From positions 1 through 26,552 of IMG/VR virus record IMGVR_UViG_3300035698_023116: DNA of 26,552 nucleotides, one strand, 5' to 3'. Positions 145-25,227 of the stretch are shown piece after piece (the first letter of the stretch is position 1; each line of letters starts with the position of its first letter). The translations under genes and the position numbers were made by a program. The notes under the pieces are model-generated. The model was not told the DNA's origin, made no database searches, and worked only from the letters and a program-made list of their open reading frames with translations. The DNA comes from a virus.

Positions 145-535
145 TAGTCCATCTAATTTAGACTATATGAATAGAAGCAAACATCGTTTTTGTCATAATT
201 CTATTCAGTCTTGCGTTGTCGAATTAATAAAAAATGGTATAGTTGAATTTAACGAATCTAACGGAAAATATGAGGCTACAATATGAGTAATTCTTGGAAA
301 TATTTGGTAATAATTGAAGGTCCAGGCAAGATAAAGAAATTCAATTCTGCGTTAGGTAAAGATTATAAAGTTATTGCTACAAAAGGTCATTGTATAGATT
401 TGCCATCTAAAGGTATTAATATAAAAATTTCTCAAAATAAAAGAACTGCTAAATATGATTTTTTACCTAATTACCAAATTATGGATGATAAAAAAGATGT
501 AGTAAGTGATCTTATGAAATTATCCAAGCAAGCGA
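121..535. other. AT-rich island ending inside topA
   Basis: By hand count of 60-base blocks, G+C is about 53% and 48% in bases 1-120, then 18-32% in every block from 121 to 540 (25, 28, 30, 32, 27, 18 and 32%), then 50, 47 and 45% in the three blocks after 540. The island covers the last methyltransferase codons, the 39-codon ORF and about the first 84 codons of topA. The change inside the topA reading frame is abrupt, with no loss of frame or of Toprim motifs. This suggests a recombination joint, a replication or regulatory element, or selection on the 5' end of the message; the sequence alone does not decide. Confidence 0.7.
167..286 (+). CDS. small unknown protein, 39 aa, overlapping topA start
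   Basis: An ATG at 167 opens a 39-codon frame whose TGA stop overlaps the topA ATG as ATGA, the same coupling seen at several other junctions here. The product begins MNRSKHRFCHNSIQSC and ends NGKYEATI; no domain is recognised. There is no convincing Shine-Dalgarno sequence before it, and the whole frame lies in the AT-rich island where short open frames are less meaningful. Its case rests on exact coupling to topA and on filling the gap between methyltransferase and topA. It could instead be a leader peptide tuning topA translation, or spurious. Confidence 0.4.
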   Translation: MNRSKHRFCHNSIQSCVVELIKNGIVEFNESNGKYEATI

Positions 536-2322
536 CAATGGTTTATCTGATGACAGATTGTGACAGAGAGGGGGAGGCGATTGCATGGCACATCGCCAAT
601 TATCTCCCCAAAACAGTAAAGACCGTTAGAGCCGCAACGAATAGCCTAACAAAGAGCGCCATCGAAGCAGCCATGAAGAAGGCAGCGAAGATCGATAATG
701 ATCTCGTTCATAGCTACGAAGCTCGTCGCATACTTGATCGAGTAGTCGGTTATAAATGTTCGCATCTTGCCAAAACTGCAACAGGCGGAACTTCTGTTGG
801 TCGAGTCCAGTCTGCGGCTCTTCGTCTTATTGCTGAGCGAGAGCAAGATATCCGAAAGTTCAAGCCAGAAGAATATTGGGAGATCAAAGCAGAGCTTCTT
901 TCTTCTGGCAAGGATAAATTTTGGGCAAACCTGATTGATCCGGACAAGATGACCGTCAAGGACCAAAAGTCAGCCGAAGTAATTGTCAAGGCAGTTGAAA
1001 AGCAGGTTGTAACATGCACAAAGCATGAAGTTAAGACTCAGGCGAGCAGGCCGTATGCTCCATTTATAACTTCGACTCTTCAACAGTCAGCTTCGACCTT
1101 CCTTGGCATGTCGCAGAGTCAGTGTATGAACGCTGCTCAGAAGCTTTACGAGAGCGGAGACATTACTTATCATCGAACGGATTCCGTCAAGTTTTCGAAA
1201 GAGGGCATGAAGGATATTCGGTCCTACGTCTCTGCAACCTATGCTTCAAATTATCAGACATCAAGTCCAAACTATTACAAGACGACCGCTAAGAACGCTC
1301 AAGAAGGCCATGAAACAATCCGTCCAACAGATGTCAAAAAGCTGTCTGCCGGTGCTGATGCCTACCAAAAGCGTCTGTATGACATGATCTGGAAGCGAGC
1401 AGTCTCATCTCAGATGACTGATGCTCAAACAGAGCGGATTGTTGCTGAATTCGAGGTCAAGAAGTATAAGTTTGAAACCCGAGGCGCTCGACAGTTGTTC
1501 GATGGTTGGAGGAAAGTCTGGTCGTATGGCGGCAGTTCCGATATTCTTTTGCCTCTCATAGCAGAAAAAGACAAGTTCGATATCATAGATGTTGAATCGG
1601 ACCAGAAGTTCACTCAGCCTCCGCCTAGATATTCTTCTGCTTCGTTTGTCAAGACGCTTGAGAAGCAAGGTATCGGTCGTCCCTCTACTTTTGAGTCCAT
1701 TACTCGAACGCTTAAAGATAGAGGGTACATTGAAATGAAGGCTAAGGCTTTTCAGGGGACCGATCTCGGTATTGGAGTCGTTGAGTTCCTAAAGAAAGCC
1801 AATTTTTGTTTCATAGACTTGGCCTTTACCGCTTCGATGGAAGACGATCTTGACAAGGTGGCTGAATCAAAGTTATCCAAAGAGAATGTTCTTCATAACT
1901 TCTATTCTCGTTTACTAAAAGATATCGAGGCTGGCAAGCTACTCAAAGATCAATTGCAACATACATCGGAGGCTTGTCCTGACTGCTCTAAACCTCTACT
2001 CATGAAGCATGGCACTTATGGCTCGTTCTTTGCCTGCGAAGATCGCAAGGGTTGCGGTTTTACTGCGAACGTTGGCGAAGACGGAAAACCCAAAGCCAAG
2101 GAGCCCCCGAAGCCCAAGGAATATGGAAAAGATCCGTGTCCTGATTGCGGCGAGCAGATGATAAAGAGAGAGAGCAAGTTTGGAGTTTTTTACGGTTGTT
2201 CTAAGTTTCCAAAGTGTCGGGGCATGCGAGACGAAGCTGGCGATCCGATAGTAAAGAAGGCCAAGTCAAAAAAGAAATGGTCAAAGAAGAAATCTAGTGG
2301 CAAGTCCAAGAAAACAAAATGA
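283..2322 (+). CDS. topA: DNA topoisomerase I (type IA)
   Basis: This enzyme relaxes negatively supercoiled DNA by cutting one strand through a 5'-phosphotyrosine link. The Toprim domain opens with LVIIEGPGK (catalytic Glu12, Lys16; most bacterial enzymes have ESPAK here) and carries DCDREGEAIAWH at about 92-103 with the metal-binding acidic residues. The core includes SVGRVQSAALRL near 171, the catalytic tyrosine in ITYHRTDS (Tyr296) and GIGRPSTFESI. Two C-terminal four-cysteine zinc ribbons begin at CPDC and are followed by a lysine/serine-rich tail. At 679 residues it matches shorter bacterial TopA proteins rather than the 865 residues of the E. coli enzyme. The ATG overlaps the stop of the 39-codon ORF. 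The first 84 or so codons are far richer in A+T than the rest. It leads a tightly packed replication gene set and probably manages supercoiling during phage replication and transcription. Confidence 0.96.
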   Translation: MSNSWKYLVIIEGPGKIKKFNSALGKDYKVIATKGHCIDLPSKGINIKISQNKRTAKYDFLPNYQIMDDKKDVVSDLMKLSKQATMVYLMTDCDREGEAIAWHIANYLPKTVKTVRAATNSLTKSAIEAAMKKAAKIDNDLVHSYEARRILDRVVGYKCSHLAKTATGGTSVGRVQSAALRLIAEREQDIRKFKPEEYWEIKAELLSSGKDKFWANLIDPDKMTVKDQKSAEVIVKAVEKQVVTCTKHEVKTQASRPYAPFITSTLQQSASTFLGMSQSQCMNAAQKLYESGDITYHRTDSVKFSKEGMKDIRSYVSATYASNYQTSSPNYYKTTAKNAQEGHETIRPTDVKKLSAGADAYQKRLYDMIWKRAVSSQMTDAQTERIVAEFEVKKYKFETRGARQLFDGWRKVWSYGGSSDILLPLIAEKDKFDIIDVESDQKFTQPPPRYSSASFVKTLEKQGIGRPSTFESITRTLKDRGYIEMKAKAFQGTDLGIGVVEFLKKANFCFIDLAFTASMEDDLDKVAESKLSKENVLHNFYSRLLKDIEAGKLLKDQLQHTSEACPDCSKPLLMKHGTYGSFFACEDRKGCGFTANVGEDGKPKAKEPPKPKEYGKDPCPDCGEQMIKRESKFGVFYGCSKFPKCRGMRDEAGDPIVKKAKSKKKWSKKKSSGKSKKTK

Positions 2323-3704: not shown

Positions 3705-4421
3705 ATGGCTTTTTTGCTAGCAGTTTCGGGTAAGAAACAGAGCGGCAAAGATACCCTAGTCAACTTCATCAACCCTTTTCTTGAAGCGGCGGGAAAGGTA
3801 GAACAGTTTACCTTTGCTGATCAACTCAAGAAGTTTCTAGTTGAAGGAATGGGTCTTGAGCCGTCGAGTGCTTGGGGTTCGAACGAAGAAAAAAATCTCC
3901 CCACGAACTATGTTTGGGACAGACTCCCTTACGAGATTCGTAAAGCGAATGCTTTTCCGGGCACGACCGATGTTAGGTCAGGTCCAATGAGCGGCAGAGA
4001 GATCATGCAGGTGTTCGGAACGGATATCATGCGCGAGTTTTTTGACGATCGCATATGGGTCAATGCATGCTTCCGAACTATCGCATTTTCCGATCCGGAC
4101 TTTGCTTTGCTTCCAGATATGAGGTTTCCCTCTGAAGTCAGTCCATGGATAGAAGAAGGCGGATACATTATTCGCTTGATGCGAGACGTATCTGAGGGCG
4201 ACAGGCATGCAAGCGAGACATCGCTTGATGATTGGGATTGGGAACAGTATGGTAATCGAGTCTTGCTTATACCTCAAGATGCTAGCAAAGAGCAGTGTTC
4301 TTCTATGACGATGCAGTGGTTGACGCCTCTGATCGATGACTATCTTGCCGATTACTCAAATTACAATGCTCGCATGGAAGCTCTCCGCATATCCACAAGC
4401 ATCAAGATCAGGATGGATTGA
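3705..4421 (+). CDS. deoxynucleoside monophosphate kinase (T4 gp1-like)
   Basis: The protein (238 aa) starts with a P-loop, GKKQSGKDT at residues 9-17, of the GxxxxGKD type used by phage dNMP kinases, which transfer phosphate from ATP to dNMPs to feed the dNTP pool. Further family features are FADQLKKFL after the first strand, GREIMQVFGTDIMREFFDDRIW in the middle and LLPDMRFPSEVSPW followed by GGYIIRLMRD, the pattern D-x-R-F-P-x-E of this group. Its size is close to that of T4 gp1 (about 241 aa). It lies immediately before the clamp-loader gene with no gap, consistent with supply of precursors for phage DNA synthesis. Substrate range cannot be read from sequence. Confidence 0.87.
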   Translation: MAFLLAVSGKKQSGKDTLVNFINPFLEAAGKVEQFTFADQLKKFLVEGMGLEPSSAWGSNEEKNLPTNYVWDRLPYEIRKANAFPGTTDVRSGPMSGREIMQVFGTDIMREFFDDRIWVNACFRTIAFSDPDFALLPDMRFPSEVSPWIEEGGYIIRLMRDVSEGDRHASETSLDDWDWEQYGNRVLLIPQDASKEQCSSMTMQWLTPLIDDYLADYSNYNARMEALRISTSIKIRMD

Positions 4422-5555
4422 ATGAACAAAGACGCTTTCGCTCTGAAGTATCGGCCCAAGAAGATAGGCGATCTCGTTGGTCAGGATCATGTCAAGCAAG
4501 TATTGACGAACTCGATCAACAAGAACAAGTTTCATCACGCTTATATTTTCGCGGGAAAGTTCGGTTGTGGCAAAACGAGTACCGCTCGCATATTCGCTGC
4601 TTCTGTAAACAATCCAAAGGGCTCTTCTCTTGAACCTGACCTCGATAGCGACATCGTTCAGAGGATATTTGCTGGCAAGCATCCTGATGTCAAGGAACTC
4701 GATGCGGCTGCGACCAGAAGTATCGATGATATTCGAGAGATCAAACAGGAAATTCAATACAATCCCATTGAATGCCGCAAGAGGTTTGTCATTCTGGACG
4801 AGTGCCACAGGCTAACCGGTGCTGCTGCTGAGGCCGCTCTGAAGATGATCGAGGAGCCTCCTCCGAATGTCATTTTCATTCTCTGCACGACTGATGCAGA
4901 CAAGCTCAAAGACACGATACATAGCCGATGTTTGCCTTTGCGGTTCAATAAGATTGCTTGGAATCTAATTCACCAGCATCTCAAGCATGTAGCAGATCAG
5001 GAAGGTTTGCAGTATGATGAGAAGGCGTTAAAGATAGCTGCCCGCAAATCCAAAGGTTCTCTGCGGAATGCTCTTCAGAATCTCCAAATGCTGGTCACTT
5101 TTTCAGGCGACGAGGGCATTACGGCTGAAATAGCCAAACAAGCCTTATCCGCTGTTGATGAAAGACATTACTTCGAGTTGGTCGATGCTATTATTAAGCC
5201 CGACGCTGGACAAGCAATGCGAATCATCGATCTCATGATAGCTGATGGTCGCGATGTCGGGGAGGTTCTGGACGGCTTTGTTGGTCATCTTAGGAACTTA
5301 CTGATTGTCAAGACCTGCCCCTCTACCAAGGGTCTAATGTATGCAACCGATGACGACGCAAAAAGATACTTGCACCAACTTGAACAGATACCTGGCGACA
5401 ATAAAGCCGGAGTTCTTGTTGAAATGATTGGATTCCTCGCTGAGGCAAGCAGAGGAATCTCTCTGAACCTCAATCCGCAAGTCATGTTTGAAGCATTCGT
5501 TGTTCGCTGCATCATTAGAGTCCATGATCACAAGAGGACGGCTCAAAGCACTTAA
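4422..5555 (+). CDS. dnaX: clamp-loader ATPase, DnaX (gamma/tau)-like
   Basis: This AAA+ protein (377 aa) should open and load the sliding clamp using ATP. Visible motifs are YRPKKIGDLVGQ near the start, Walker A GKFGCGKT (45-52), IDDIREIKQEIQYNP, Walker B FVILDECH (Asp126, Glu127), the helix AALKMIEEPPPNVIF, sensor-1 CTTD (155-158) and the SRC motif with arginine finger Arg169. In cellular DnaX four cysteines form a zinc module after Walker A; here that stretch (about 60-90) has no cysteine at all. There is also no long tau-type C-terminal extension, so it resembles gamma. The ATG follows directly on the dNMP kinase stop. A single DnaX-like ATPase plus the HolA-like protein downstream could form a two-gene loader like T4 gp44/gp62. 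Confidence 0.9.
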   Translation: MNKDAFALKYRPKKIGDLVGQDHVKQVLTNSINKNKFHHAYIFAGKFGCGKTSTARIFAASVNNPKGSSLEPDLDSDIVQRIFAGKHPDVKELDAAATRSIDDIREIKQEIQYNPIECRKRFVILDECHRLTGAAAEAALKMIEEPPPNVIFILCTTDADKLKDTIHSRCLPLRFNKIAWNLIHQHLKHVADQEGLQYDEKALKIAARKSKGSLRNALQNLQMLVTFSGDEGITAEIAKQALSAVDERHYFELVDAIIKPDAGQAMRIIDLMIADGRDVGEVLDGFVGHLRNLLIVKTCPSTKGLMYATDDDAKRYLHQLEQIPGDNKAGVLVEMIGFLAEASRGISLNLNPQVMFEAFVVRCIIRVHDHKRTAQST

Positions 5556-5567
5556 GGAACAAAATCT

Positions 5568-6356
5568 ATGCCTCGACCTAAAAAGGTCGGGGCCTCTAAG
5601 TCTAAAGCAACTAAGAAGACTACCAAGAAGAAAACAGAGCCGGTTCTATCAGAAGAAGAACTAGAAGCTCAGCGTTGCGAGGAACTGGTTAGCACGATCA
5701 GAACCTCCATCAAGAAGAAAGAAGTCGATGAAGCATTCAATGAGATTGCAATCAGGCTAAGGCCCCGAATACAAAAACTAGTTAATAGATTCAATATAGC
5801 TGGTTTTGATTCTTCAGATATTATGCAAGAGGCGCTCTACGCTCTCAGGTATAAGGCTATTAAAGACTACAATCCTGAACGAGGCAACGGCATCGGCTGG
5901 GCTCCGTTTGACAGATTTGCGGTTCTATGTATACGCCGACATTTGTCTACTGAATACAAAACAAGTCATCAGAATAAGAAGAAGGTTCTGAACTCTAGTA
6001 TTTCGCTTAATCAGGAATTTATTAGAGCCGGACCTGGCGAAGACCTTTCATTGATTAGCATTATTGCGGCTGATGACGAGCCCATAATTGATCAATTAGA
6101 GGATAAAGAATACTATATGGACCTTATGACTCGACTCCTCAAGAGTCTGTCCTCTTTTGAGAAAGAAGTGTTTGTGCTTTATGCTCAAAGGTATTCGTAT
6201 GAGGAAATTGCTGATCTAATCAATGAGAAGCGTGTCAAAGTCAAAGTCAATATCAAGGGAGTCGATAATGCTCTTAGCAGGATCAAGCAGAAAGCCAAAA
6301 CGATCTTGTATCAATATGAGCAGTGCAATAGTAATGACAAAGACGACGAACTGTAG
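5568..6356 (+). CDS. RNA polymerase sigma factor, SigH-like
   Basis: This 262-residue protein would direct RNA polymerase to phage promoters. A lysine-rich N-terminal tail (1-25) precedes the sigma core. Region 2 is clear at about 79-127: GFDSSDIMQEALYAL, then AIKDYNPERG and FDRFAVLCIRRHL. Region 4 lies at about 190-245: LSSFEKEVFVLYAQRYSYEEIADLI and KGVDNALSRIKQKAK, close to the pattern of the Bacillus SigH group. Between the two helix-turn-helix halves are extra residues (KRVKVKVNI) encoded by tandem 6-base units. An AAGGAA precedes the ATG. The gene sits between the DnaX-like and DnaN-like genes, a position that suggests replication-linked transcription. Its target promoters are not identified. 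Confidence 0.9.
   Translation: MPRPKKVGASKSKATKKTTKKKTEPVLSEEELEAQRCEELVSTIRTSIKKKEVDEAFNEIAIRLRPRIQKLVNRFNIAGFDSSDIMQEALYALRYKAIKDYNPERGNGIGWAPFDRFAVLCIRRHLSTEYKTSHQNKKKVLNSSISLNQEFIRAGPGEDLSLISIIAADDEPIIDQLEDKEYYMDLMTRLLKSLSSFEKEVFVLYAQRYSYEEIADLINEKRVKVKVNIKGVDNALSRIKQKAKTILYQYEQCNSNDKDDEL
6234..6251 (+). repeat. tandem 6-base repeat in sigma region 4
   Basis: Two exact GTCAAA units followed by GTCAAT encode VKVKVN. They fall between the two halves of the helix-turn-helix of the sigma factor, where SigH-type proteins have a shorter turn. The repeat keeps the frame, so loss or gain of a unit would change the turn by two residues. Confidence 0.6.
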
Positions 6357-6368
6357 AAGGAGTAATTG

Positions 6369-7646
6369 ATGAAGTTCAAAGTTCGCAAAAAAGGTTTCAG
6401 CCTAGCGACGGATGTAGCAGTTGCGGTAGCAACGACAAATGGGATTAAGGATTACGAGAATGCGGGCAGGTTGACCCTTATCGCTGATAAGGAAGGCATA
6501 ACTGCTTTTGCGGACAATGGTCTTGTTCAGATGAAGAACGATCTGTTCAATGACGATTTTCCTGATCTTGATTACGAGTTCGAAGAGAACGGTTCGGTTA
6601 CGGTTCGAGCCAAAGAGTTCCAAGAGGTCTTGTCGTCGTTTAATGACGGTGACACGATTCACATGGAACTCTTTTCTGATGGCGACTCAGGCCAAGATCT
6701 TCGCTTTATTAGCGCGAGCGATAATGAGGTCTATCAGTCTCTTTCAACTCTTCCTAATGCAATTCATTTCCCTCAAATCGTTGAGGATCAACTTGAGACG
6801 GTTGACTCTTCATTCGAGATTCGGAGAGACATTTTTGGTATTGCTTCCAATCGTCTAGCCTTTGCCCGAGGGTTTGAGGATTACCGTCCCGAGTATCAGT
6901 ATTGGGTTATTCGAGCCAGCAAAGACTCGATTCGTTTCGCGGCGGGCTCAGGCGGTCGATTCGCCATTCTTGACTACGAGGGCAGCGGCTTGTCCAACGC
7001 TACCGAGGACACAAATGTTCTAATCCCCGGCGTTCAGTCTCTCATTCTTGGCAAGGTTATTGCAAAAATCCATGATGAACAGGTTCGAGTCATTCCTCTT
7101 GAGAATCATCTTGTTGTCAGAACAGACAACCTGATTATGTCTATGCCAAATTATGAGCCGGACATGCAATGGCCCGATGAGAACAAGTATCTCGATAGGA
7201 CGAGCAAGTATCGCATGGTAACAAGGCTCGGTGATTGGCCCTCTATTGTCAAGGGCATCCTTGCAACTCGCGATGATGACTTCAAGCAATCTAATCGCTT
7301 CCATGTCGCCACCTTTACCATCAAGCCAGATTCTAACGAAATCCTGGCAGAGGCTTCTAGCGGATCTATGCGGGCACGACGCAAGGCTCGTATCTCTGAT
7401 TTCAAAGGCGATCTACCTGCTGGTCATAAGATTCGCCTCGAATCCGCATACGTTGCTGAGGCATTCCGTTCTGCTTCCGAGGATGACTACGCTCAATGGG
7501 AGTTTGATGATGAGGGCGTATTGATCTTGCGCTTCTTTGCTTCTCCTGACATTGGCGATCCGTCTGACTTTGCCAAGGTTAACGAGGCAACCGGTCTCAA
7601 GGAAAGATACTCCATGTTTATTGCCACCCATGGCGAAGACACCTAA
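6369..7646 (+). CDS. dnaN: sliding clamp, DnaN (beta)-like
   Basis: The beta clamp is a ring that tethers DNA polymerase and other enzymes to DNA. The 425-residue length, somewhat above the usual 365-380, suits three clamp domains. Signs of the family are the domain-2 opening with SNRLAFARGFEDYRPEYQYWVI (compare the common pattern of a helix ending in FA-S-D-E-R-P), the domain-3 helix GHKIRLESAYVAEAF with following strands VLILRFFASP, and the alternating strand layout throughout. Similarity is distant. The ATG at 6369 is preferred to a TTG three bases upstream because GAAGGAG ends six bases before it. It lies between the sigma gene and the delta-subunit gene. A hairpin follows the stop. Function as a clamp is supported mainly by family pattern plus two clamp-loader neighbours. 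Confidence 0.75.
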   Translation: MKFKVRKKGFSLATDVAVAVATTNGIKDYENAGRLTLIADKEGITAFADNGLVQMKNDLFNDDFPDLDYEFEENGSVTVRAKEFQEVLSSFNDGDTIHMELFSDGDSGQDLRFISASDNEVYQSLSTLPNAIHFPQIVEDQLETVDSSFEIRRDIFGIASNRLAFARGFEDYRPEYQYWVIRASKDSIRFAAGSGGRFAILDYEGSGLSNATEDTNVLIPGVQSLILGKVIAKIHDEQVRVIPLENHLVVRTDNLIMSMPNYEPDMQWPDENKYLDRTSKYRMVTRLGDWPSIVKGILATRDDDFKQSNRFHVATFTIKPDSNEILAEASSGSMRARRKARISDFKGDLPAGHKIRLESAYVAEAFRSASEDDYAQWEFDDEGVLILRFFASPDIGDPSDFAKVNEATGLKERYSMFIATHGEDT

Positions 7647-7651
7647 TTTCT

Positions 7652-7681
7652 GTATCCGCTCGCTGAAAGGCGGGTGGATAT
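7652..7681 (+). promoter_or_regulatory. strong hairpin covering the holA ribosome site
   Basis: After the clamp stop, bases 7653-7663 (TATCCGCTCGC) pair with 7670-7680 (GCGGGTGGATA) around a six-base loop TGAAAG, with two G-T pairs and one further G-T pair possible outside. Bases 7681-7684 are TTTT and the delta-subunit ATG begins at 7685. The only ribosome-site candidate, GGTGGA at 7674-7679, lies in the 3' arm. The structure could act as a translational operator, a partial terminator, or both. Confidence 0.65.
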
Positions 7682-7684
7682 TTT

Positions 7685-8866
7685 ATGGCTGAAGACAGTA
7701 AGATTCATGTAGCATGGCTGTCTGGCAGCTATCATCGTCGCAGAGCTATGATGTCGCGTATCCGAGATCGCTTTCCGGATTCCGAATACATCGTGGTGGA
7801 CTCGGATAAAGAATTTGAGTTCTTGATGTCTAAACTGCGGAGCGGAGGTTGTTTCGACAGTTCTCGTTTGATTTCTGTCATGGCTATACCCAAGACAAAG
7901 AACGCCAACGAGAAAAAGAAGTATATTGAGCGGATGGAGAAGATCATCAGCGGACCGATGACGGGTTGCTTTTTGGTCTTCAATGGCATCGAGCCAACCA
8001 AAGAGAAGGCCATTTTCAATGCGGTCAAGAGCCATGCTAAGCTATATGAATTTGAGTCCGTTATTCCTGCCAGAGAAATAGGCGGCTACATGCCTAAGAG
8101 GTTGAAAGCCTTTAATCTGAGAGCAAATCCGGATGTTTCTCATATGATAGCCGAATACTGCGCAAAACAGCCTTCTGCAAAGGGTTACAACGCAGACATG
8201 ATTGAGATGGCTTTGTCTTCGCTTTCTGCCGCTCTGTCTGATGGAGCAGAGGTTACGGCTGATCATGTAGAAACAATAACATTCAGGCACGATGAATTTG
8301 TTATTTGGGATATGATGAATGCTCTTGACGCCAAGGACTGCGATAAAGTCCTCGGTTTGTTGTCTAAAATGCAGCTTATGGGCAATAGCTTTGCTCAATC
8401 GATTACAGAGATGGTAACGACGTTTCTATGGCGATATCGTTTGATTCTGATGATCAGAGAGGGCTACAGCGTCAAGGACAGCAGAGAGAAGATCATGGAG
8501 AATATTCTCTCGATGCGCAAGATGTCTAAGACGGGCGTTGGTCTGTCGGCTCAGTATGAACCGGACACGGTAAAGACGGGTCCAAACCAAGGAAAACCGG
8601 CGAGCGTTTGGAGTCAACAGGTGGCATCAATCGCGATGGACGGCCTCTACGGTTCCACTCCTGCTGCAGATCAATGGAGCAGAGGGGAAATCTATGTCTT
8701 TATCAATGCCCTTACAACCGGATTATCCATCCTTAGAGGTGCAAGCGAGAACGAAGCTCTCTTGATTGCCGATACTATTCTAATGCTTGGCTGCAAGCAG
8801 CTTTCTCGACGAGAAGCCGATGCGGTTTTGGATGAGATGAGGCAACTAAGAGAACACTATGCTTGA
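7685..8866 (+). CDS. holA: clamp-loader delta subunit, HolA-like
   Basis: In bacteria the delta subunit binds and opens the beta ring. This protein (393 aa; E. coli HolA is 343) follows the delta layout: an N-terminal half ending with SRLISVMAIPKTKN, the helix YIERMEKIISGPMTGCFLVFNG and FNAVKSHAKLYEFESV, a helical middle with a YNADMIEMALSSLSAAL helix and VTADHVETITFRHDEFVIWDMMNALDAKD, then a collar-like helical C-terminus. The series 'SLSAAL / V-T-x-x-x-V / F-x-I-W-D-x-x-x-A-L' corresponds to the delta pattern where the helix leading into the last domain begins. Similarity is remote and no nucleotide-binding motif exists, as expected of delta. Position directly after the clamp gene and a few genes from DnaX strengthens the call. 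A strong hairpin covers its ribosome site. Confidence 0.72.
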   Translation: MAEDSKIHVAWLSGSYHRRRAMMSRIRDRFPDSEYIVVDSDKEFEFLMSKLRSGGCFDSSRLISVMAIPKTKNANEKKKYIERMEKIISGPMTGCFLVFNGIEPTKEKAIFNAVKSHAKLYEFESVIPAREIGGYMPKRLKAFNLRANPDVSHMIAEYCAKQPSAKGYNADMIEMALSSLSAALSDGAEVTADHVETITFRHDEFVIWDMMNALDAKDCDKVLGLLSKMQLMGNSFAQSITEMVTTFLWRYRLILMIREGYSVKDSREKIMENILSMRKMSKTGVGLSAQYEPDTVKTGPNQGKPASVWSQQVASIAMDGLYGSTPAADQWSRGEIYVFINALTTGLSILRGASENEALLIADTILMLGCKQLSRREADAVLDEMRQLREHYA

Positions 8867-9433: not shown

Positions 9434-10519
9434 ATGAATTATTATGAAGTGCTTGGCGTCCCCAAGGATGCAGACGAAGATGCGATAAAAAAGGCCTACC
9501 GCAAATTGGCTATGAAGCATCATCCTGACAAGAACCCGGATAACCCTGAGGCTGAGTCCAAATTCAAGGAAGCTTCTGAGGCTTACGAGGTCTTGTCTGA
9601 CCCAAATAAACGTCAGCAGTATGATCGCTTCGGTTCAGTAGGTAGGCGTCAAGCTCCGCCTCGCAGTAACCCGTTTAGCGACTTCATGAAGCATGCATAT
9701 GCTCAACGGCGTTATACCCCTCCTCAGAATATTCATGTCACTATCAATGTATCTGTACCTCTTGATGACGTTGTTGACCGCAAGGCTTTCAAAGTTTCAT
9801 ACAATGTATCAGACCGGTGTTCTGAATGCAAAGGTAAGGGTCATGAGAAGGATGCCAAGAAGGAAGAATGCTCGGTATGCCGCGGTTCAGGTCAAATAAG
9901 CCAGACTCAAAATCTTGGCAATACGCATTTTGATTTTCAGGGAACTTGTCCCAATTGCCAAGGATCAGGTAGCGTATACGACCCGTCTTCTGCTTGCAAA
10001 GAATGCAAAGGCAAAAGGTACGTTCCCCAAAAAAGAGAAACAGAAGTCCCCATGAGGCCGGGTGTAACCGATGGAGTGACAATCATCGTGCCCGGAGAGG
10101 GAGCGATGAGCCAAACCGGAGCCAGAGGACATCTCCATGTTCGATTCCGGCTCAACAGGCACGAACTCTTCATTGTAGACAATTACGACCTCCATATACA
10201 AGTACCTGTATCTCATTCTCTAATGTATCAGGGAGGAAAAGTTCAGGTTCCAACTCCAAGGGGCGAACGAGAGATAGAAGTGCAACCATTTGCATTCTCT
10301 ATGGATCCTGTCAAGATGCACGGTCAGGGCCTTATGATGGATGGCGGTTCCATGGGCGATTTGTATGTTCACTTAGTCACCGAAAACCCGAAGTTCAACA
10401 AGAAGACCACAGAAAAGCTGGTTTCTCTGCTTGAAGAGGTAGAAAACGATAAAACTTTACCTAAGAGGGCCAGCTTCCAAGAAAAAGCCTCAACTTATTT
10501 AGATAGGAGAAGAAAATGA
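9434..10519 (+). CDS. dnaJ: DnaJ chaperone, type I
   Basis: DnaJ stimulates the ATPase of DnaK and delivers unfolded clients; in phage lambda and P1 this system remodels replication complexes. The protein (361 aa) has an N-terminal J domain (about 1-66) with HPD at 30-32, no true glycine/phenylalanine-rich linker but a short [14 protein letters not shown] stretch, then four CxxC repeats at 129/132, 146/149, 172/175 and 188/191. Three repeats keep CxxCxGxG; the last is CKECKGKR. C-terminal beta domains follow ([27 protein letters not shown]). It lacks only the extra length of the E. coli protein (376 aa). Its neighbours form the replication module and no DnaK is in the window, so it probably works with the host DnaK or one encoded elsewhere. 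Confidence 0.95.
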
Positions 10520-14424: not shown

Positions 14425-15151
14425 AGAGAGAGCATCAGATGTAAGAGAAGAGGTGCGGCAACAGACATCCCTTGAAGGGATGCTTGGTTCGCTTGCTAGT
14501 TCCCTTGGCTCAGGGTCTCCTATGCCCAAGGCTTCTTCTTCCGCCTCTTCTGGCCCTAGGACGGCCAACGGAGTTGCGCTTCCGGAGGATCATCACATTG
14601 ACATATCCTCCATCGCAGGTAACGTGCCTGAGAGTCGGCATAAGGGCGCTGGGCACAGAATAGGCAACAGCGGTTGGGGACAGTCTCTCCTTGTCAACAA
14701 CGATGTGTCTTCGCCTACCGAATCTATGCAAAAGCAGGCTTCGTCGGAAGTTCCAGATCTTGACCTTGATGACCTGTCTCCATTGATAGGAGATATTCTG
14801 TCTTTCCGTTTCTCAGAAAACAGAGAGAAGGAGATCAAGCAGATACATGCTGCTCTGAAGTCAGAGATGACAAGGCTTTGCGCAAACAGAGTTGTTGCTA
14901 ACACGCAAGCTAAGGTCAAGACAGCCAAGAACTTCTATTATGGCAAAACAGGATCTCTTCGTATTGAGTTCAGTATTCTCAATCAAAAGTATTCCATGCT
15001 TGCCAAGGGTTCATTTACTGGCGATGAAATACTGTATCCGACTGTTGAAGGTGACAGGGTTGTTGGCCTTGTTATGAGAAAGACATCTTCTGGACTAGAG
15101 AACGCTACCGAAAACTTTAGCGTAAGCATTAGTCAAGGCTGGAAAGAATGA
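14411..15151 (+). CDS. unknown protein, 246 aa, disordered N-terminus
   Basis: The first half (to about 120) is low in hydrophobic residues and rich in serine, glycine and alanine (for example GSLASSLGSGSPMPKASSS), probably disordered. The second half looks folded: SPLIGDILSFRFSENREKEIKQIHAALKSEMTRL is helical and RIEFSILNQKYSMLAKGSF with GDRVVGLVMRK is strand-like. No family is recognised. Its ATG lies inside the end of ruvC and its stop overlaps the next ATG as ATGA, so it is coupled to both. It could be an adaptor acting with the resolvase or with packaging proteins downstream. Confidence 0.68.
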   Translation: MNRDKERASDVREEVRQQTSLEGMLGSLASSLGSGSPMPKASSSASSGPRTANGVALPEDHHIDISSIAGNVPESRHKGAGHRIGNSGWGQSLLVNNDVSSPTESMQKQASSEVPDLDLDDLSPLIGDILSFRFSENREKEIKQIHAALKSEMTRLCANRVVANTQAKVKTAKNFYYGKTGSLRIEFSILNQKYSMLAKGSFTGDEILYPTVEGDRVVGLVMRKTSSGLENATENFSVSISQGWKE

Positions 15152-15519
15152 ACTGGTACAAGCGAGCGCAAACTGAATTTGCCATGGACGGTTTTGATGA
15201 TCGCAACCGTCTCAATGAGAAGATCAGCATGCTCGAAGGTATTGCAGCCATGCTATCCTATGCTTCAAGGCTGATTTTTCAGACGCAAAGAGGTGCAAGA
15301 ATGCTCGTTCAGCAAGCGATGGCCGAAAAGAGCTTATCTTCTTATCCTCAGGTGATCGAGATACTCGGACAGGCCGATTCGGTTGCCCTCGATTCTCCTT
15401 ACAAGTTTTCTGATTACTGTCTTGCTAGTATGGACGAGATAGTAATTAAGACAAAGAATTTGAAGAGGCAACGAGAGGACTGGACTAATAATGGCGGTCC
15501 TAAAAAGGGCCTCTTCTGA
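15148..15519 (+). CDS. unknown protein with NWYK N-terminus, 123 aa
   Basis: The frame begins MNWYKRAQTEFAMDGFDD and continues as a helical protein (NEKISMLEGIAAMLSYASRLIF, ARMLVQQAMAEK), ending with a charged, glycine-containing tail (REDWTNNGGPKKGLF). No family is recognised. The opening resembles the start of the segment at 18710 (MASNWYKKIKADASS), which is the point of a proposed internal start in the cca gene. It overlaps the previous gene by ATGA and precedes the packaging-like gene by nine bases. Confidence 0.66.
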   Translation: MNWYKRAQTEFAMDGFDDRNRLNEKISMLEGIAAMLSYASRLIFQTQRGARMLVQQAMAEKSLSSYPQVIEILGQADSVALDSPYKFSDYCLASMDEIVIKTKNLKRQREDWTNNGGPKKGLF

Positions 15520-16188: not shown

Positions 16189-16382
16189 TGACAGATATGC
16201 AAAACCAGAAAAATCGAATCATCGGTAAGATCAAGCGAGGTTCCGGAGCCAGCGCTTCTACTCAGTCTTCTTCGAATCAACCTCCGGCTCCGGGTGGGGC
16301 CTCCTCGGGGAGTCAGCCGGTTCAGCAAACTCAAAGACGAAAGAAGGGGTGCGGCTGTAGGCGCAAGCGAAAGGGTGGATGA
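16188..16382 (+). CDS. small basic protein, 64 aa
   Basis: The ATG shares a base with the previous stop (TGATG) and its TGA overlaps the next start in the same way. The product is low in hydrophobic residues: QNQKNRIIGKIKRGSGASAS, a proline/glycine/serine middle (QPPAPGGASSGSQPVQQ) and a strongly basic cysteine end, RRKKGCGCRRKRKGG. It looks like a nucleic-acid-binding tail-only protein. No family is recognised. Confidence 0.62.
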   Translation: MTDMQNQKNRIIGKIKRGSGASASTQSSSNQPPAPGGASSGSQPVQQTQRRKKGCGCRRKRKGG

Positions 16383-19039
16383 TGAAAGAAACAAATGAGC
16401 TTATCGATCTTGTAAGAGCGATCGGTAGTTCTAAATCAACATCCGGTTTTGATCGCAAAGATGCAGAGCGCGTCTTGGGCGGTCTTTTTGTCTACAGAGG
16501 AATAGAGGGGGCCATAGCGTCCGCTCCTCAGCATTTCTTTGATACAATGTTTTCTCTGTCTAATAAATCATACAACACTGCTCTGTACCCCTGCGACGCT
16601 GTTGATCTCAGGGATATCCTTGAAGATAATATCCTTTGTCACGCCGCTCCCCTTGTTTTGTTCTCCAATCAAGCAGCCAAAAAACTCGTAAATAAGCATA
16701 AGGTTTTCTTGGTCATCGACATTGAAGACCTTGATGCAAATGTCATTGGCGGATGCGCTCTGTATGACTGCTGCAAGATGGATATCAAAAACCGGATAAC
16801 AGGAATCCTTGTTACTCGTAAGGGGCCGGAAAGACAGGTCAGAAATATTGTCTCTGATATAGAGCCAAGTATTCCGGTACATAATCAGATCGATCCTCCT
16901 GGCCTGGAAAGGTACAAAGTAGCTCAGGCTTCCGAAAAAAGAAAGTTCCGCATCAACCTCCCTGCCCTCAAGGTAGTTGAGGAAATTGTCGCGGAGAATG
17001 AATTCGAAGCCGTCAAGCGAGCCTTATCTACTCGTTGGGACCGGCACCCTGATAGCGAGACTAAAAGAAAGCCAGCGAGATACTCTGCTGAGTATTGGTT
17101 TCATTCTGGTTTTTGGGGAGAGATTGTCAAGGAGGCCCGCTCGGATTTTTCTATAAAGACGGCTCAGCAGGCACCTAGCCTTGAGCTTACTGCTGACGAG
17201 CAGGCCGTCTTTCAGACAATCATGGCTATAGATCAGCAGTTTGGTCTTGGTCAGCAATACCGGGTTGCAGGAGGCTGGGTCAGAGACCGTCTACTGGGAG
17301 TCGAAAGCGATGATATCGATATTGCTCTAGACAAAATGACCGGTCAAGAGTTTCGCAAGTACGCTGAACAATATGCTGCTCAAAACCCGAATGCAGGAAT
17401 AGGTAAGAGCTACGTTGTTGATCAGAATCCTGATGCTTCCAAGCATCTTGAGACAACGGCTATTCAAATGGGTCCGTTCAAGATTGACTTCGTAAATCTT
17501 AGAACTGAGGACTACGCAGACGATAGTCGCATACCGAACATGAGGCCTGGCACTCCAGAAGACGATGCTCAAAGGCGAGACCTTACGATCAATTCCATGT
17601 TCTACAACATCGGAAGCGGACAGATTGAGGACTACGTTGGGGGTCTCCAAGATATTCAAACGCTGACTCTCCGGACGCCTCTTGATCCGAAGCAGACGTT
17701 CATGGACGATCCTCTAAGAATGCTTAGGGTTCTTCGTTTTCATAGCCGTTATCCTGGTTCTACGATTGCAGATGAAACAATGCAGGGCATGTCCGACGAG
17801 AGCGTTCATGAAGCATACCGGAACAAAGTATCTCCAGAACGGGCCGGTCCCGAGATTATGAAGCTGTTCAACGGAGCCACTCCGGAAGAGTCTCTGCGCG
17901 TTTTGTATCAGACCGGCATGCATTCTGCATTGCTCAATCTTCCCGAGTTCTCTGGGCTTCATTCTCCGGACATGGATCAGAGAAACCCTCATCATGAACT
18001 CAACTGGCTAGAGCATACTCTGAAGGTTGTCAAAAACCTGAACGATCTTCTCGCGGAAAAAGGAATCGATGGCAAGGATCGATCTCTTGCTCTGCTTGGA
18101 GCATGGTTTCATGATTTTGGTAAACTACATCCTGAAATAGGTAGACCGAAGGATAGTAACCCGGAGCATATGAGTTACCGAGGGCACGAGAACGTATCAG
18201 CAGAACTATCTGAGGCTTTTTTGAAGAGCATCGGAGTGGGAGCAGATGACCGTAAGGTCGTCAATATGATTGTCCAGGAGCATATGTTTCCTCATGCTCA
18301 TGACGGTTCTTGGGGTAATCGACAGATGGGTAAGCTCAGAGAGCGCTCAACGATTCCGGGTCAAGAAGATCGAGATGATCTTTGGAAACTGGTCATGTGG
18401 CATGCTCAGGCCGATGCTGCAGCAAAGTCCGAGGTATCGACTTTGACGGACGTTCCCGAGTACGATGAGAGATTCGGTCGCATGGAAGAATACATGGCGG
18501 CTCCGCCGCCGGTAAAGCCGCTCGTAGACGGCAGAAGGCTCATGGAGTTGTTTCCCGGCATTAGTCCGAAGAGCGGTTTCATCCGAGATATACATGAACG
18601 CCTGATGGTAGAACAGCAGGCAGGAAACATCCTAGATCCCTCTCAGTCAGAGACTTTTGTCGAGGGCATTCGCTTTGATATTGAGTCAAGGTACGGAGGA
18701 GGAACGACTATGGCATCGAACTGGTATAAGAAGATCAAGGCTGACGCAAGCTCCGGGCAATCTCCCGATGGTTATGATCCGCCAACCCTTGTAGATGATC
18801 CAGAACTTATTCGTCATAACGGCGAGAAGAAAATGATCTACTATGAGCCGGGTCAGAATAGTAAGTTCAAGGTTGGGGATCGAGTCCGGAGAAGGCAGTC
18901 TGGCATGGCCTTCCCTCAACGCGAAGGTAAAATTGTCCGAAAGAAAGATAATAGCATCCTTGTTCGATGGGACAGCGGCGAAGAGTCCGAGTTCGATATT
19001 AACGAAATTGAAACTCAAGCATTCATTGAGCGGGTCTAA
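16379..19039 (+). CDS. cca: CCA tRNA nucleotidyltransferase with N- and C-terminal extensions, 886 aa
   Basis: The middle is a class II CCA-adding enzyme, which builds or repairs the 3' CCA of tRNA. Motifs are GGWVRD (298-303), the metal-binding SDDIDIAL (Asp312, Asp314), RRDLTINSMFY (399-409), then GGLQDIQTL and DDPLRMLRVLRFHSRYPG. An HD phosphohydrolase domain follows, with LEHTLKVV and WFHDFGK (His578, Asp579). The usual E. coli enzyme is about 412 aa; here about 280 unknown residues precede it, ending in FSIKTAQQAP. The last 109 residues form another unit, starting MASNWYKKIKADASS and containing a KOW/SH3-like segment (FKVGDRVRRRQSG, ILVRWDSGEESEFD); an internal ribosome site and ATG lie at its junction. 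The start overlaps the preceding stop. No tRNA gene is in the window, so its clients lie elsewhere. It could be a natural fusion or three products in one frame. Confidence 0.86.
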   Translation: MMKETNELIDLVRAIGSSKSTSGFDRKDAERVLGGLFVYRGIEGAIASAPQHFFDTMFSLSNKSYNTALYPCDAVDLRDILEDNILCHAAPLVLFSNQAAKKLVNKHKVFLVIDIEDLDANVIGGCALYDCCKMDIKNRITGILVTRKGPERQVRNIVSDIEPSIPVHNQIDPPGLERYKVAQASEKRKFRINLPALKVVEEIVAENEFEAVKRALSTRWDRHPDSETKRKPARYSAEYWFHSGFWGEIVKEARSDFSIKTAQQAPSLELTADEQAVFQTIMAIDQQFGLGQQYRVAGGWVRDRLLGVESDDIDIALDKMTGQEFRKYAEQYAAQNPNAGIGKSYVVDQNPDASKHLETTAIQMGPFKIDFVNLRTEDYADDSRIPNMRPGTPEDDAQRRDLTINSMFYNIGSGQIEDYVGGLQDIQTLTLRTPLDPKQTFMDDPLRMLRVLRFHSRYPGSTIADETMQGMSDESVHEAYRNKVSPERAGPEIMKLFNGATPEESLRVLYQTGMHSALLNLPEFSGLHSPDMDQRNPHHELNWLEHTLKVVKNLNDLLAEKGIDGKDRSLALLGAWFHDFGKLHPEIGRPKDSNPEHMSYRGHENVSAELSEAFLKSIGVGADDRKVVNMIVQEHMFPHAHDGSWGNRQMGKLRERSTIPGQEDRDDLWKLVMWHAQADAAAKSEVSTLTDVPEYDERFGRMEEYMAAPPPVKPLVDGRRLMELFPGISPKSGFIRDIHERLMVEQQAGNILDPSQSETFVEGIRFDIESRYGGGTTMASNWYKKIKADASSGQSPDGYDPPTLVDDPELIRHNGEKKMIYYEPGQNSKFKVGDRVRRRQSGMAFPQREGKIVRKKDNSILVRWDSGEESEFDINEIETQAFIERV
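18695..18712 (+). promoter_or_regulatory. internal ribosome site and start within cca
   Basis: GGAGGAGG occurs at 18695-18702, before an in-frame ATG at 18710-18712. Initiation there would give a separate 109-residue protein from the end of the cca frame. Its first residues resemble those of the protein starting at 15148. The purine run also encodes a natural Gly-Gly-Gly linker (YGGGTT), so coincidence remains possible. Confidence 0.5.
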
Positions 19040-23187: not shown

Positions 23188-25227
23188 ATGGCTTCATGCG
23201 AAGATTTTAGAAAATGGTTCCATGTTAGGTTTTCTATTCAGAATCGTTCTAACGGTTCTGATATCTATACGCTTTCAAGCGTCAGCAATAACCTTGGAGA
23301 CATTGACAATAGCGGTAAGATATTTGTAAGAACCGAAGACTGTTCTTCTCTTAGCGCTCCCCCTAGGGCATGGGATACAAACGAGGCTCCTGGTTTTTTC
23401 TACTTCAGACCAACGGTAGCTGATCTTGATCAGTCATTTGTTGATGTAACTTCTTTTGAAGATATCATAGACGAAACCAATCGTAGAATATTTGTCTATG
23501 AGCTTATTGCAACTATCGATACTAGCGATACTGTCGGAGGTGCAACATTTTGCAACGCAACAGGGCCGCCAGATGCCCTTTGTCCAGATGGAAACAATAT
23601 CTATGACCGCATTGTTGATAATAGTAATAGCGTTGTTTTTCGATGGCCCGAAATTGATGCACTAACTGAGATTGGCTGCTGCCGTATTGAGTTGGATGAT
23701 CCTGGCGATCCTGGAGATCCTCCAACTGACATTCGAGATTGTTCTCGCATTTGGGCTATCATCAAAAATGGCGATGACTACGAGCTTCGTTACTACGATT
23801 TTGAGTCCCCGCCATCTCAGGCCCTTGTTGTTCGAGGTCGAATAAGTAACGTAGCTGGCATCGATACCGAATCTGTTTGGCTTGATCTTGCTTGGGACAC
23901 TCGGGATTTTCTTTGGGGTCTTGAGAAAAATGGACTCAGAAGAATACTGCCCGGCAGAGCAAGTCTAGCTCCTGATGTTTCTGGCATTGCTCAAGCCCAA
24001 CAATACGCAACGTTTACGGGAGACTCTCAGAATGTTAGCGAGCTTACTGGTCTTTTCGCAGCAGGTCTAGATGATACAGGTATTCTCGGCAAAGCGGGCA
24101 TGTCTTACAATCAAACGATTGAGTCTCTCTTCATTGCTGCAGGAGATAAGCTCTTTAGTTTGACATATATTGATGAAACCACTTGGCAAGTAGACAAAGT
24201 GTCAGGAAATATAGCTGCTGGCGAAGACGGATTAGGCGATCTAGCTTTTGACATATTTGGCAATTGCTATTGCGTTCTTGATGATGACCTAGCTGAAATC
24301 GATTTTGAAAGCAACGTTGGAGCGGGCTTTGGTCAATTGACTCCCATTGGCAATGGAAGTCTTCTCAGGTCTATGACCGGTATGGATTTTATTCTCGATT
24401 TGGCGAGCGGCGAATTTATTAGTTTCTACGGAGCTATCAGCGCCGGTCAACTCTACCGTATAGATAGGTTTACGGGCGAGCGAGATTTCCTTTCGGGCGT
24501 CAATCTTGGCCCTAATGTTGTTGGTATTTCAAGTTGCCAGGCTGGCGAAGATTTGCGTGCTTACGAAATCCCATTCTTTCCTGGCGATACTCCGTGGCTT
24601 TTCATGTTGGATGGTTCTGGCTCTATGGCATACACTAATGGGTGCATAGCTAGAGACGACCTTATTCGAAGGGACTTGTCTGCATATATTGATCAGTACG
24701 TTGAAGAGGGCGAGATAATGTCGTTTGTCTTCTTTGGGGGCGGGTTTTCTAAGCAGTTTGTAACTGCCAACAAATCTGCTGCTATCAATCATATTCAGAA
24801 TCAATACAGAAGTGCTGCTAACAATCAGCCGGGCGGCGAATTTTATTGCGACCCAGGAGGCTCTCACTTCTGTAACCCTAGATGTTGCGGAGAAACATTC
24901 GTTAGTATAATTGAGAAAGTAAACAACGATATCATAAACCTCAGTAGCGGCGATCTAAAACTTCGAGCTTGTATGTTTATTGGAGATGGAGAGTTTGTTG
25001 ACGACGTTTGCGACGGGGCATTTCTTAGAAGCGAAATGGAAAGCTATATGGCTCAAATTTTGCCTCAGGTAGATCCTCGCTTTGTTGTGAGATCCGTTGG
25101 CATTCAGCCCAATTCAGGTTTGTCAAACCTGCAGATTATTGCCGAGGCTGGCGGCGGGGATTATGAATCATGGGTCGTACAGGCTCCGGAAGATTGCTGC
25201 GAATTGGATATCAATGATTGCACATAA
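23188..25227 (+). CDS. propeller-like protein with von Willebrand A domain, 679 aa
   Basis: A C-terminal von Willebrand A domain begins near residue 470: WLFMLDGSGSM gives the metal-site D-x-S-x-S motif (Asp475, Ser477, Ser479), followed by helix IRRDLSAYIDQYV, and the third strand LRACMFIGDGEF. The middle, from about 180 to 460, has recurring strand units (RIWAIIKNGDDYELRYYDF, LFSLTYIDETTWQVDKVSG, QLYRIDRFTGERDF) like a beta-propeller. There are many cysteines, including CDPGGSHFCNPRCCGE and a CCELDINDC end, which suggests disulfides and an outside location. VWA domains bind proteins through a divalent metal, so adhesion or virion assembly is inferred. It shows no signal peptide. The next gene begins inside its last codons. 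Confidence 0.75.
   Translation: MASCEDFRKWFHVRFSIQNRSNGSDIYTLSSVSNNLGDIDNSGKIFVRTEDCSSLSAPPRAWDTNEAPGFFYFRPTVADLDQSFVDVTSFEDIIDETNRRIFVYELIATIDTSDTVGGATFCNATGPPDALCPDGNNIYDRIVDNSNSVVFRWPEIDALTEIGCCRIELDDPGDPGDPPTDIRDCSRIWAIIKNGDDYELRYYDFESPPSQALVVRGRISNVAGIDTESVWLDLAWDTRDFLWGLEKNGLRRILPGRASLAPDVSGIAQAQQYATFTGDSQNVSELTGLFAAGLDDTGILGKAGMSYNQTIESLFIAAGDKLFSLTYIDETTWQVDKVSGNIAAGEDGLGDLAFDIFGNCYCVLDDDLAEIDFESNVGAGFGQLTPIGNGSLLRSMTGMDFILDLASGEFISFYGAISAGQLYRIDRFTGERDFLSGVNLGPNVVGISSCQAGEDLRAYEIPFFPGDTPWLFMLDGSGSMAYTNGCIARDDLIRRDLSAYIDQYVEEGEIMSFVFFGGGFSKQFVTANKSAAINHIQNQYRSAANNQPGGEFYCDPGGSHFCNPRCCGETFVSIIEKVNNDIINLSSGDLKLRACMFIGDGEFVDDVCDGAFLRSEMESYMAQILPQVDPRFVVRSVGIQPNSGLSNLQIIAEAGGGDYESWVVQAPEDCCELDINDCT

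Follow-up and report, generated by a model that had tools for sequence, protein, structure and literature searches.

Why should a gene for a sigma factor lie between the gene for a clamp-loader subunit and the gene for a sliding clamp? The question is raised by IMG/VR virus record IMGVR_UViG_3300035698_023116, whose 26,552 bases were analysed at full length and are called the window below. The window makes up the entire viral record and comes from a jumbo phage (a large bacterial virus), of whose genome it is, by size and content, a 26.5 kb fragment. All four open reading frames (ORFs) of the block in question, dnaX, sigma, dnaN and holA, were found at positions 4422–8866, on the + strand throughout (Table 1). 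Together with the relatives described below, this block is probably a replisome operon that makes a sigma factor for the host RNA polymerase along with the clamp and its loader, with later transcription following replication in time.

The four genes and their products

Only 12 nt separate dnaX from the sigma gene, another 12 nt separate the sigma gene from dnaN, and 38 nt lie between dnaN and holA. An AAGGAA sequence before the sigma start overlaps the dnaX stop codon, and an AAGGAG Shine-Dalgarno sequence stands immediately after the sigma stop, before the dnaN start codon ATG at 6369. This packing suggests the layout of a single transcription unit. Sigma-70 promoters and terminators in the window showed no excess over shuffled sequences.

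Window DnaX matched TIGR02397 with 314.7 bits (8.6e-94; cut-off 250). Its Walker A, DECH and HSRC motifs could be read in the sequence, and it was 59% identical to DnaX of contig L025, a relative. The Cys4 zinc module after Walker A was not found, as residues 50–100 of window DnaX contained no CxxC. The module was also missing from DnaX of L025 and L137, and CxxC-type cysteines were present in the more distant L027 and L209. Since DnaX of Streptococcus phage Dp-1 lacks the module as well, it is not decisive for DnaX membership. Its loss appeared to be specific to the window lineage (window 4422–5555, L025 9992–11098, L137 6751–7863). A separate observation was an intein-like insert in DnaX of a 219 kb relative (L138 5084–7789).

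Window HolA matched TIGR01128 with 83.3 bits (1.9e-23; cut-off 80). Its predicted structure, with a pTM of only 0.49, matched the delta subunits of Bacillus subtilis (YqeN, 3zh9, 2.0e-10) and Escherichia coli (1jqj, 1.6e-9; 1jr3, 1.8e-8). Phe57 of HolA was invariant across five aligned phage deltas; it may correspond to the hydrophobic Leu-Phe clamp-opening wedge of E. coli delta.

The product of the third gene scored 39.8 bits against the clamp model TIGR00663 (2.5e-10), below the cut-off of 137.65, and matched phrog_947 at 4.6e-7. Because the profile score was under the cut-off, its structure was predicted with AlphaFold2 from an alignment of six phage clamps. The single-chain model (m6893d0ccfe15; pLDDT 79, pTM 0.74) matched B. 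subtilis DnaN (6e8d) over the whole length (E 1.4e-22, TM 0.71), and 521 PDB matches had E ≤ 0.001. By its predicted three-domain clamp fold, the product starting at 6369 is DnaN-type, not an equivalog.

The sigma factor scored 50.5 bits against TIGR02937 (1.7e-13; cut-off 42.9), its Pfam matches to sigma regions 2 and 4 were slightly under the cut-off, and it was 55% identical to the sigma factor of L025. It has a basic N-terminal tail (MPRPKK) and an acidic C-terminal tail (NSNDKDDEL). Its top NCBIfam models were SigH-type (best match 3.9e-23), but it reached only 82.1 bits against an equivalog cut-off of 212 and 74.1 against 294.8, and it is thus not a SigH ortholog.

With DnaX, HolA and the sigma factor placed by profiles, and DnaN settled by its predicted fold, the gene identities stand. 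A preliminary description of the locus, made from its sequence, had read these genes as a consecutive run of cellular-type DnaX, SigH, DnaN and HolA families. Coordinates, profiles and folds bore out the run and placed the 6369 and 7685 products in the clamp and delta families. The cellular type held for DnaX, DnaN, HolA and a SigH-like sigma factor, but not as far as SigH orthology, the scores being under the equivalog cut-offs.

Gene order in related phages

Single-protein scans with window DnaN, sigma, HolA and DnaX gave no close relatives, and we therefore used alignment-guided scans. The DnaX-guided scan retrieved 80 viral loci, a sigma-guided scan added L137 and L138, and an L027-guided scan added L208. 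A tblastn search with DnaN and HolA against annotated phages found none. Matches named 'Listeria phage LM 4-11-1/4-14-1' or 'Bacteriophage sp.' were for the most part short records lacking annotation; we did not count them as evidence from phages.

The order dnaX-sigma-dnaN-holA, on one strand, was found in five further phage contigs: L025 (333,623 bases), L137 (494,120), L027 (235,624), L208 (255,142) and L138 (219,188), the last having one extra gene, acyltransferase-like, between sigma and dnaN. This recurrence indicates that the block is more than chance. The adjacency of the four genes, which the preliminary description had suggested checking, is thus kept in related genomes, and no orthologous sigma gene was located elsewhere in the relatives. 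The order was kept down to about 30% DnaX identity and persisted where DnaN identity to the window was about 20% or undetectable. L025 was syntenic with the window from topA through the CCA enzyme. L209, a contig filed in a Patescibacteria metagenome-assembled genome, showed dnaX-sigma-dnaN up to the end of the sequence examined. The L054 contig (G021) had profile matches in the same order, L026 had the same order with genes between, and L062 had a looser or profile-level version of it.

The clamps of L025 and L137 aligned to the window clamp at about 30%. TIGR00663 recognised neither these two nor the clamp-position protein of L208, and the latter is therefore assigned as a clamp by position only. 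The protein in the HolA position of L208 was a profile match (1.9e-15).

This synteny also bears on where the DNA comes from. On a bacterial chromosome, the four genes would be ordinary cellular replication genes; DnaX, DnaN, HolA, TopA and DnaJ are indeed cellular-type, and one relative's contig was binned as Patescibacteria. However, the window encodes a phage-type resolvase and a deoxynucleoside monophosphate (dNMP) kinase, is a viral record, and is syntenic with IMG/VR contigs of 219–494 kb, and its clamp is too divergent for the cellular profile cut-off. A chromosomal origin is extremely improbable.

We then measured how often sigma lies near dnaX in 50 dnaX contigs, picked by dnaX, not by sigma, so as to avoid near-duplicates. 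A clear sigma match was one with E of about 1e-9 or better. Eighteen contigs carried one, and in 11 of them it lay at most 5 kb from dnaX and on its strand, as compared with 2.5 expected from random placement (P 1.9e-6). When the related sigma factors of G011, G012, G014, G044 and G049 were collapsed to one, the count was 8 of 14 against 2.2 expected (P 3e-4). The test takes no account of deeper relatedness or of the general tendency of early genes to cluster. The co-location of sigma and dnaX is conserved and non-random.

Co-location could be neutral or historical, with sigma as one more early or middle gene in a dense run and without a tie to the replisome. The region is dense and one-stranded and has other conserved neighbours (topA, dNMP kinase, dnaJ), genes intervene in L026 and L138, and in G027, G042, G045 and G048 the sigma genes lie far from dnaX, all of which fits such a history. 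This explanation is nevertheless very unlikely, as the order outlasts recognisable similarity of the clamps and the adjacency is enriched over chance. Because distant giant phages retain the order, replication and the activity of late genes may be connected.

Polymerases, possible sigma–clamp contact and promoters

Pol III alpha was present in the relatives G001, G051, G052, G003, G021 and G053, and none of the six relatives searched had DNA polymerase A. In G001 and G051, the two halves of Pol III alpha had separate ORFs, which flank a Dam-like methyltransferase ORF (L150 1077–5810, L151 11–4946). Its C-termini in G001, G051 and G052 (GNIFG, GNIFG and ADIFG) resembled the clamp motif of E. 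coli Pol III alpha, which is QADMFG. The C-part of Pol III alpha in a 219 kb relative carried an intein-like insert (L152 2175–4653). PF00562, the large-subunit domain of RNA polymerase, was not found in G001, G051, G052, G003 and G053, suggesting that the sigma factor works with the host RNA polymerase.

The preliminary description had suggested testing for a clamp-binding peptide in residues 1–25 or the acidic C-terminus of the window sigma factor. A clamp-binding motif scan of this protein found none in the basic N-tail or the acidic C-tail, and a clamp-binding tail was also absent from the sigma factors of the four nearest relatives, L025, L137, L138 and L209. The window protein and these four stop soon after region 4, with endings such as YQYEQCNSNDKDDEL, TKYEEKK, RKYEKKK, ERYGLEEENE and EKYGK. 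Over the full length of the window, L025, L137 and L138 sigma factors the strict clamp motif was absent, and loose internal matches occurred in L138 only.

The L027 sigma factor ends in EVQLALFE, a canonical QLxLF-type beta-clamp peptide; of the 244 ORFs of this 236 kb phage, it alone carries the strict clamp motif within its final 10 residues. The motif occupied this position in 11 of 2549 ORFs, as against 3.6 expected. The L208 sigma factor, whose identity to that of L027 is 44% by tblastn and 46% when aligned, finishes with DVKIPLFDED at the aligned place, so that the pattern hydrophobic-x-Leu-Phe-acidic is kept. These putative LF-acidic clamp tails of more distant relatives are, as two sequences, a lead and no proof; they offer a directly testable peptide.

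For promoters, we collected 304 upstream regions from G051 and G001, of which 267 remained once tRNA-like ones were removed. The T4-type late promoter TATAAATA was found in 0 of the 267, and the strict SigH dyad was absent or rare and not enriched. An expectation-maximization motif search of the upstream regions scored no better than the reverse-strand control. CTAAACTT was enriched, but almost only in G051 and clustered in one part, and was rejected as a promoter. G[ACT]CGATA was sense-biased (27 versus 8 regions) and was rejected as a late promoter; it precedes glycosyltransferase, phosphoesterase, ATPase-like and unknown genes. A promoter motif shared upstream of structural genes, which had been envisaged earlier, did not emerge, as these two large relatives yielded no late-promoter class. 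The repeat GACTAAACTT was observed upstream of many genes in L163–L169 (G051, about 220–330 kb), often near the start codon, and was nearly absent in G001.

Phage T4 couples its late genes to replication via gp45, with gp55 and gp33, and like the window it encodes, as a functional set, a clamp, a loader and a sigma-like factor (PMC2988020, PMC7892883). T4 uses a PCNA-like homotrimer clamp, a gp44/62 loader and gp55, a region 2 sigma factor with a clamp tail, plus gp33; in contrast, the window has a bacterial three-domain DnaN clamp, a delta/DnaX loader and a region 2 plus region 4 sigma factor without the tail. Clamp-activated late transcription of the T4 kind might still have been assembled independently from bacterial-type parts, with the sigma factor binding both the host RNA polymerase and, via a short C-terminal peptide, the phage's own DnaN ring, so that only replicating DNA would fire late promoters. 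The gene order, the tails of L027 and L208 and the hydrophobic-acidic C-terminus of T4 gp55 (PMC2988020) agree with this. However, only those two sequences have a tail, the upstream regions of G051 and G001 genes lack TATAAATA, and in T4 gp33, not gp55, is reported to be the essential clamp-binding arm (PMC2988020). No counterpart of gp33 was identified: the short ORFs after holA (8859, 9122) had no significant family match, whole relatives not having been searched. In G051, three proteins with clamp motifs (116, 216 and 99 aa) were considered as gp33-like candidates and rejected, as none was conserved in G001 or had a family match. We regard such a T4-like mechanism as quite unlikely. The window block is not T4-type by membership; the L027/L208 branch could still work like one.

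Contact might also have given rise, independently of T4, to a replication-coupled late transcription switch, with the SigH-like sigma factor docking on phage DnaN. In the L027/L208 branch the docking would use a [QK][LI]xLF-acidic C-terminal peptide, in the window branch a different surface. We consider such a switch unlikely. The interpretation of the preliminary description is thus partly supported: for replication-coupled late transcription, neither a clamp-binding tail in the window sigma factor nor a late promoter class in G051 and G001 was found, but the C-termini of L027 and L208 keep the idea alive for that branch, and these two relatives alone give a specific hint of physical coupling.

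The reading we prefer is that of an operon acting through timing. The block would be the clamp-and-loader part of the jumbo phage's own Pol III-type replisome, with a SigH-like sigma factor built in. DnaX and delta would open the phage DnaN ring and load it for a phage Pol III alpha, whose gene lies outside the window fragment and is present in the five jumbo-phage relatives searched (G001, G051, G052, G003 and G053). The sigma factor, made from the same message, would dock on the host RNA polymerase and switch it to phage promoters of a later class, so that co-expression would tie the timing of later transcription to the start of replication. A direct sigma–clamp tether as in T4 is neither needed nor predicted for the window sigma factor; even without contact, the operon would be a simple timing mechanism, giving the replisome and the next-stage sigma factor from one message.

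Several findings weigh against this reading. No polymerase or known structural genes were seen within the window fragment, and no sigma-linked promoter class was found in G051 and G001. Additional sigma-like genes lie far from the operon in G001, G051 and G052, and thus, at least in G001 and G051, a different factor could be in charge of the late switch. Contact could also be the reason why sigma is kept inside the clamp operon over such divergence.

Known systems and neighbouring genes

Bacterial-style clamps and loaders in phages are already known from Dp-1 and PaBG. Like the window, Dp-1 (HQ268735) encodes DnaN (gp10), DnaX (gp17), HolA (gp19) and a sigma-like protein (gp24) within about 10 kb, with a second DnaX/delta-prime protein (gp18) in the same replication region. 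Unlike in the window, its DnaN gene is not next to sigma but about 4 kb upstream of dnaX. Its gp24 (131 aa, annotated sigma3/sigma4) has no similarity to the window sigma factor, its HolA could not be aligned to window HolA by BLAST, and its DnaN was marginally alignable. The Pseudomonas jumbo phage PaBG (Lupandier group) encodes Pol III beta, Pol III gamma and a sigma-70 factor; unlike the window block, it has a DNA polymerase I type enzyme, and its sigma gene 118 is far from the Pol III genes 180–207 (PMC7412058). In jumbo phage groups 2.2 and 3.2, Pol III alpha, including a split version, and phage sigma factors are known, but the split parts lie far apart and occur with a family B polymerase and an RFC/PCNA-type clamp system (PMC7824862), whereas in the window's relatives the alpha halves lie close together and the clamp set consists of DnaX, HolA and DnaN. 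In the open literature, subscription papers aside, we found no description of a conserved sigma-in-clamp-operon arrangement. A sigma gene between a bacterial-type loader and clamp in large phages is a second place to look for replication–transcription coupling.

The neighbouring genes are listed with the block in Table 1. The dNMP kinase gene also lies directly upstream of dnaX in L025, L137, L138 and L209.

Table 1. Coordinates of the block and of neighbouring genes in the window.
Feature	Position	Strand	Evidence
Topoisomerase I, first gene of the conserved syntenic stretch	283..2322	+	PF01131 3.5e-109; 51% identity to L025
Deoxynucleoside monophosphate kinase, same gene run	3705..4421	+	phrog_139 1e-33, PF21448 1.2e-15
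DnaX-type clamp-loader ATPase, gamma-like, 377 aa	4422..5555	+	TIGR02397 above cut-off; Walker A GKFGCGKTS, DECH, SRC
SigH-like sigma-70 family factor, regions 2 and 4	5568..6356	+	TIGR02937 above cut-off; SigH-type models
Divergent three-domain DnaN-type sliding clamp, 425 aa from ATG 6369	6369..7646	+	weak profiles, predicted fold
HolA-type delta subunit of the clamp loader, 393 aa	7685..8866	+	TIGR01128 above cut-off; fold match
DnaJ-like co-chaperone, conserved downstream neighbour	9434..10519	+	PF00226 3.8e-30; synteny with L025, L137
Holliday junction resolvase of phage type, indicating that the record is phage DNA	13771..14424	+	phrog_1770 1.9e-32

Some minor features were noted elsewhere. 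In L025 (6–4021), an IMP dehydrogenase-like gene is apparently split by an intein-like insert holding endonuclease-like and methylase-like ORFs. The 679 aa protein at window 23188–25227 has a von Willebrand-type DGSGSM motif and no Pfam or PHROG match. The end of the contig (26420–26552) falls within a proline-rich PPPPSPPPPSP repeat, where an assembly break is likely. The 886 aa ORF at window 16379–19039 contains a CCA-adding enzyme domain plus about 290 extra N-terminal residues. An (M)xWYKKA/S signature starts otherwise different proteins at window 15148–15519, L025 18813, L138 13922 and L176 2738, and it also occurs internally in the CCA-enzyme ORF, ahead of its C-terminal part.

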